A stretch of DNA of 43,876 nt from Gallionellaceae bacterium (GTDB taxonomy: Bacteria; Pseudomonadota; Gammaproteobacteria; Burkholderiales; Thiobacillaceae), in NCBI GenBank assembly GCA_028695325.1, contig JAQVJE010000002.1, forward strand, positions 11,859 through 55,734, written 5' to 3'. Shown one piece after another: positions 36,138 to 36,821 of the stretch. Position 1 is the first letter of the stretch. Every line of letters starts with the position of its first letter. A program made the translations under genes and the position numbers. The notes under the pieces were generated by a model that saw only the letters and a program-made list of their open reading frames with translations, did not search any database and was not told where the DNA came from.

Positions 36138-36821
36138 ATGAAACTGTCCGCTATCGCCAGCGCCCTGACCCTGGCCCTGCTGTCCCAAGCCGCCGCTGCC
36201 GCCCCCGAGGGCACCGTCGACCAGATGCTGGATCCCGCCAAGGCCGCCGATGTCGCCAAGGATCCCAAGGCCGCCGTGCAAGCCATGACCGACATGATGG
36301 ATCCCGCCACCTCCATGATCATGATGCAGCGCCTGATGGACCCGAACGTCTACACCAAGATGGCCCAGTCCGGCATGGACCCCAACATCATGAAGTCCTA
36401 CGCCGCCTTCCTGGACCCCAACATGTATGGCAAGTGGATGGCTGCCGGCATGGACCCGAATTTCTACATGGCCATGCTGACCCCCATGATGAACCCCAAC
36501 ATGTACATGAAGTGGGCCATGGCTCCCATGGATCCGCGTGTCTGGAACGCCGGCATGCAGATGATGAACCCCGCCCTGTACATGAACTGGGCGATGGCTC
36601 CGATGAACCCCGCCAACATGAACCTGATGATGGCCCCGATGAACCCCAACATGTACACCAACTGGATGGGCACCGCTGCCAACCCGCAGACCTACGGTAC
36701 CTGGGGCGCCTTCATGAACCCGGCCACCTACGGCAACATGGTCAACCCGGCCACCTTCTTCACCATGCCGTTTGCGGCTCCCGTCGCCCCGGCCGCTCCC
36801 GCCGCTGCTCCCGCCAAGTAA
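36138..36821 (+). CDS. Secreted Met-rich [D/N]P-repeat protein (12-13 aa period), uncharacterised
   Basis: Signal peptide MKLSAIASALTLALLSQAAAA; [D/N]P at residues 32,42,55,68,81,93,106,119,132,144,157,169,182,194,203; SD aaggaga upstream. Confidence 0.9.
   Translation: MKLSAIASALTLALLSQAAAAAPEGTVDQMLDPAKAADVAKDPKAAVQAMTDMMDPATSMIMMQRLMDPNVYTKMAQSGMDPNIMKSYAAFLDPNMYGKWMAAGMDPNFYMAMLTPMMNPNMYMKWAMAPMDPRVWNAGMQMMNPALYMNWAMAPMNPANMNLMMAPMNPNMYTNWMGTAANPQTYGTWGAFMNPATYGNMVNPATFFTMPFAAPVAPAAPAAAPAK

Follow-up and report, generated by a model that had tools for sequence, protein, structure and literature searches.

What does a bacterium do with an exported protein that carries 38 methionines, and does so extreme a composition reflect metal binding, protection against oxidation, or a structural task? 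The question is raised by P1 (36138-36821, + strand), an open reading frame in the window, by which we mean the whole 43,876-nucleotide stretch of DNA that was analyzed. On the basis of its reading frame and composition, a family profile, and a tree, P1 was classified as a Met-rich secreted protein of 227 residues, composed of helix repeats marked by [D/N]P. An earlier note on this DNA had counted 38 Met in 227 residues with Cys and His absent, and the composition of the open reading frame is exactly that: 38 Met (16.7%), 45 Ala, 25 Pro, 19 Asn, zero Cys, and zero His. The segment 36231-36764, corresponding to residues 32 to 209, holds 35 of the 38 Met. Across the 39 called genes of the window Met averages 3.3% (SD, 2.6), the highest value after P1 being 6.3%, and at the window background of 2.8% the binomial probability of at least 38 Met in 227 residues is ∼1e-18. 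The Met composition of P1 is real and no accident.

The reading frame starts with a Sec-type signal peptide (MKLSAIASALTLALLSQAAAA; 36138-36200, + strand) with likely cleavage before APEGT; its n, h, and c regions and AxA cut were judged by eye, and the orthologs look alike. A Shine-Dalgarno-like sequence (AAGGAGAAG; approximately 36124-36134, + strand) was read upstream of P1. Downstream, a predicted rho-independent terminator (36841-36874, + strand; 13-pair stem followed by a T run, −19.2 kcal/mol on folding) suggests that P1 can be transcribed alone, possibly as a single-gene transcript. A sigma-70 scan found no promoter, and the codon usage of P1 shows moderate likeness to that of groESL (codon adaptation index [CAI], 0.65), too moderate to argue for high abundance. 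The next gene, P2 (36942-37466, + strand), encodes a paralog of 174 residues with its own signal peptide (family match, E = 9.6e-14; P2 clade in the tree). It has 6 Met, in agreement with the approximate count given for it before.

How are the methionines arranged? P1 contains 15 [D/N]P units (36231-36749, + strand), spaced 12 to 13 residues apart in 12 of the 14 intervals and predicted to form a chain of short helices. Many Met had been placed by the earlier note either directly before [D/N]P or at aromatic positions; the first placement applies to 10 of the 15 units for Met, and the second needs a small correction, the aromatic position (+4) being mainly Tyr. Most Met fall at unit positions −1, −2, −5, +5, +7, and +8. 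An AlphaFold2 model computed from a 14-row alignment predicted, with moderate confidence (pLDDT, 70.7; pTM, 0.57), ∼15 short helices with breaks at [D/N]P. When the PDB was searched by fold with this model, the best match was no better than an E value of 5, and a search of the PDB by profile gave no convincing match.

We then asked whether P1 belongs to a recognized family. None of the Pfam and NCBIfam models matched P1; P2 returned weak Pfam noise, and the gamma homologs gave nothing above sub-threshold noise. A family profile built from 33 rows detected relatives in 52 of 118 Thiobacillaceae-type genomes, with an all-or-none distribution of 3 to 10 dispersed copies in each carrier. The source genome has more copies on two other contigs, and among named organisms relatives occur in Parasulfuritortus cantonensis and in Thiobacillus metagenome-assembled genomes, which assigns the window to a sulfur oxidizer of Thiobacillaceae type. 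Distant members were present in 6 of 387 sampled genomes of the class and in one more genome in the phylum sample; a tblastn search of plasmids and phages found no family members. Signal peptides occur throughout. A tree of 84 rows separated a P1 clade (20 rows), a P2 clade, an OmpA-fused clade, a clade near mla-like genes, a clade linked to fcc and sox genes, and an outside-family clade, and P1 is 48% identical to an operon-borne member (E = 2e-51). P1 is the founding member of a new and well-delimited family, whose proteins are exported, repetitive, and linked to sulfur oxidation.

Is methionine itself what the family conserves? The quartiles of Met content over 83 family proteins are 8.1, 11, and 14.3%. 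Met-richness is a family trait, P2-type members excepted; the proposal that high Met sets P1 apart from its paralog is right for P2, but most other paralogs are rich in Met as well (median, 11% over the 83 proteins). Within the P1 clade, the number of Met per ortholog ranges from 19 to 43 (n = 21). The columns that hold Met in P1 are 58% Met across 20 orthologs, followed by Leu (22.7%) and then Ala, Thr, Ile, and Val; Pro, Tyr, and Trp columns are kept at 99%, 92%, and 85%, respectively. Judged from these alignments, the conserved feature is the predicted helix-repeat pattern, with Met a preferred but replaceable hydrophobic residue. Such replacement of Met within a retained repeat pattern is evidence against a shared function in metal ligation, and the idea that the Met columns are conserved ligands was rejected on the column counts.

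These data bear directly on two functions suggested by the earlier note. Binding of periplasmic Cu(I) or Ag(I) by Met thioethers would suit a protein with 38 Met and neither Cys nor His, with seven MxxM and ten MxxxM motifs, and with one adjacent pair, Met164 and Met165, that is invariant in all 21 orthologs. However, no other Met is invariant, the Met columns are shared mostly with Leu, and the number of Met differs widely among orthologs. Nor did a copper-handling neighborhood come to light: a motif scan found no copper P-type ATPase motif in the window or in the flanks of the retrieved family loci of at least 9 kb. We consider Cu(I)/Ag(I) binding very unlikely on this evidence; a small, lineage-specific metal site at Met164-Met165 may exist. 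The second suggestion was a methionine-oxidation sink, in which sacrificial Met residues would soak up hypohalous or reactive oxygen species and be restored by methionine sulfoxide reductases; it fits the very high Met content and the periplasmic location expected of a scavenger. Interchange of Met with Leu under a constant repeat pattern, without general column-wise conservation of Met, speaks against it, and a motif scan limited to MsrA and MsrB found neither in the flanks of family loci. We give the oxidation sink hardly any weight.

Can the genomic surroundings of the family indicate another function? At locus L086 the order is napA-fccB-fccA-family gene-DUF302-rhodanese-fccB-fccA-sigma54 regulator-soxZ-soxY, all on one strand, the family gene being separated by 28 nt from DUF302 and by 22 nt from fccA. 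L031 reads fccB-fccA-family gene-DUF302, L092 reads fccB-family gene-soxY-soxZ-DUF302, and at L063 the family gene adjoins DUF302 with fccB close by. In the gamma genome G155, three family proteins and a CxxCH Met-Pro repeat protein are encoded between a PF04143 sulfur transporter and DUF302/soxZ/soxY, and in G614, from another class, the family gene adjoins DUF302, and both a sulfur transporter and DsrE2 are encoded within a few genes of it. The link between the family and sulfur genes is found in three lineages.

Two repeat proteins encoded at these loci stand out. In G020, L092:12191-13006 (+ strand) follows fccB, the family gene, soxYZ, and DUF302 and encodes a secreted Met-Asn-Pro repeat protein (MNPAMLMNPMTMGMM) that has no match in Pfam. 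In G155, L076:13095-14090 (− strand) adjoins the DUF302 gene near soxZ/soxY; its secreted product carries a single CxxCH heme-type motif ahead of ∼200 residues of MNPMMMAPMMG-type repeats and is possibly a cytochrome-like member of the sulfur cluster.

The DUF302 genes near the family (L086:10441-11187, L031:2176-2904, L104:9608-10246, and L076:14172-15203) encode a separate, unrelated protein. DUF302 recurs beside both the repeat family and soxYZ in the three lineages, and its product may be a partner of the repeat proteins. In other sulfur oxidizers, DUF302 lies between soxA and soxB (PMC5248467). One potential explanation of this arrangement is that the family provides a sulfur carrier or redox partner of sulfide dehydrogenase, for example a polysulfide-binding chaperone that delivers sulfur to SoxYZ or to the DUF302 protein. 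The positions beside DUF302, fccA, and soxYZ, the location of DUF302 among sox genes elsewhere, and two conserved Cys in the distant gamma members are consistent with such a carrier. P1, however, lacks any Cys to carry sulfane sulfur, and the 3 to 10 paralogs per genome and the OmpA fusion described below fit a structural role better. The operon-linked members may act as soluble sulfur carriers; for the family as a whole we regard such a role as quite unlikely.

Is the association with sulfur genes more frequent than expected? In six Thiobacillaceae-type genomes, at least eight family genes have a sulfide dehydrogenase gene within 2 kb, where 1.5 would be expected (P ∼ 2e-4; this and the following co-occurrence P values ignore shared ancestry); two of the eight come from L031 and L092. 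Likewise, at least seven family genes of Thiobacillaceae-type genomes lie within 6 kb of soxZ (expected, 1.8; P = 0.003). The median number of sulfide dehydrogenase copies in Thiobacillaceae-type genomes was 4 with the family versus 1 without it (P = 6e-14); the difference was also seen within two genera (P = 5e-6 and P = 0.04) but not within a third. Among carriers outside the Thiobacillaceae-type genomes, dsrA was present in five of the six from the class, compared to 31% of the rest (P = 0.013), and sulfide dehydrogenase was present in 5 of 7, compared to 19 of 71 (P = 0.026). The presence of soxZ did not separate carriers from noncarriers among Thiobacillaceae-type genomes (lacking in 6 of 52 versus 7 of 66). 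Gene neighborhood and co-occurrence link the family to sulfur oxidation. The family is missing from more than half of the Thiobacillaceae-type genomes, although sulfide dehydrogenase and Sox are present in most, and sulfur oxidation as such can therefore proceed without it.

What about the copy in the window? On one side of the P1-P2 locus is a branched-chain amino acid ABC transporter, and on the other is a block formed by a folate enzyme, 6S RNA, and zapA. The flanking gene order is kept in related genomes, and the P1-P2 pair is kept in several genera. The 6S RNA (RF00013, 58 bits; window 38077-38259, − strand) sits where ssrS is usually found, flanked by the 5-formyltetrahydrofolate cyclo-ligase gene and zapA. 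A tblastn search of the window locus found no soxYZ, DUF302, or dsrA; no sulfur gene adjoins P1, and a sulfur role for the window copy would follow from homology. The source genome has two dsrA copies, soxZ, and four sulfide dehydrogenases; the two dsrA genes (G000, contigs C187 and C19) are 77% identical.

Most paralog loci, namely those of the mla, OmpA, and P1 clades, are likewise away from sulfur genes. One paralog clade ends in an OmpA domain (PF00691; E = 2e-18 to 5e-20), exemplified in the source genome by L046:979-2316 (contig C223), in which the repeat domain is followed by an Ala/Pro linker and a C-terminal OmpA domain (E = 2.4e-18). A Pfam search found no OmpA domain in P1. The OmpA domain is peptidoglycan binding, and the fused paralog would place the repeat at the cell wall. 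Could the family therefore be a general envelope scaffold, a helical layer or spacer reaching in this lineage from the outer membrane to the peptidoglycan, with its place in sulfur operons explained by an envelope adapted to sulfur deposition and not by direct contact with sulfur? The OmpA-domain paralog, the signal peptides in all members, and the many paralogs in housekeeping neighborhoods (for example, near mla-like lipid-transport genes or in the folate/zapA region) agree with this explanation, which retains some probability because most copies reside in such neighborhoods. But one clade and the distant homologs sit specifically inside fcc/sox/DsrE2 clusters, the all-or-none absence from close relatives is not what a core component of the envelope would show, and the tie to sulfide dehydrogenase copy number is strong. 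We judge a general scaffold to be unlikely.

The best-supported reading, to which we assign a probability of roughly 55%, is that P1 is exported to serve as a structural protein, coating or holding zero-valent sulfur in the manner of sulfur globule proteins. A structural envelope or granule-coat protein was among the earlier suggestions, and it gains indirect support from the members within sulfide dehydrogenase and sox operons, from the OmpA-fused paralog, and from the distribution of the family in sulfur oxidizers. The signal peptide, as read from the sequence, would take P1 to the periplasm. There, the 15 units, each presumably a short helix with a D/N-P cap and lined by Met, Tyr, and Trp, would present a hydrophobic surface with few charges, as in the predicted model. 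We infer that these surfaces could pack on one another and on zero-valent sulfur or polysulfide to build a coat or matrix, with flavocytochrome c sulfide dehydrogenase and the Sox carrier as the probable sources of the sulfur, and the OmpA-domain paralog would tie this coat to the cell wall. In such a coat, Met would serve through its flexible, hydrophobic side chain, which costs a sulfur oxidizer little and can be exchanged for that of Leu, rather than as a conserved metal ligand. A more elaborate version, which we offer tentatively, is that the Met-lined helical repeats form a periplasmic shell for elemental sulfur in which the thioethers bind cyclo-octasulfur or polysulfide, the co-transcribed sulfide dehydrogenase supplies it, and the OmpA-fused member fastens it to peptidoglycan; Thiobacillaceae-type bacteria, with relatives in other classes, might thus possess a dedicated, anchored compartment for sulfur storage.

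Little is known about the packaging of elemental sulfur by chemotrophic sulfur oxidizers outside the purple sulfur bacteria, and the known globule proteins are hard to find by homology because they are short and variable. The family, with orthologs in more than 50 genomes, an OmpA-anchored member, and operon links to fcc and SoxYZ, gives named genes for knockout and tagging, and it offers a reason other than metal binding for an extreme Met content. If the coat is confirmed, its genes would serve as markers of sulfur deposition by the Thiobacillaceae of groundwater and sediment. Three congeners (G003, G005, and G006) have no family copy and two sulfide dehydrogenase copies each, compared to three to six in family-positive congeners, and are a useful natural contrast for phenotype.

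How does the family compare to known systems? Periplasmic copper proteins of the CusF, PcoC, and CopK type are exported and Met-rich, as is P1; P1 differs in being larger and repetitive, in having no column-conserved set of Met motifs, and in having no copper genes nearby in the motif scan. OmpA-like proteins (PF00691) share their domain with one paralog clade, and the domain is missing from P1 and most paralogs. DUF302 proteins of sox operons are direct neighbors of family members rather than relatives. Sulfur globule proteins (Sgp) are Sec exported, hydrophobic, and repetitive, with regular prolines, and those of Allochromatium vinosum are several per genome, encoded in separate transcription units, partly redundant, and found in oxidizers of sulfide and thiosulfate (PMC10386293). 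A search for methionine-rich sulfur globule proteins in one collection of the literature found nothing, and SgpD itself was set aside as an identity for P1 because the P-X2-P pattern described for it (PMC10386293) is absent. We claim no Sgp membership for P1; the Sgp traits that we did find are a signal peptide and hydrophobic repeats with spaced Pro in P1 and a sulfur-oxidizing host in the source genome. SgpA to SgpD are described as keratin-like or plant cell wall-like, whereas the P1 family is larger, Met-rich, and predicted to be helical, with [D/N]P units of 12 to 13 residues, and has, unlike them, one paralog fused to OmpA. Compared by description, the P1 family resembles SgpA to SgpD in export, hydrophobicity, repeats, spaced prolines, and several copies in separate units.
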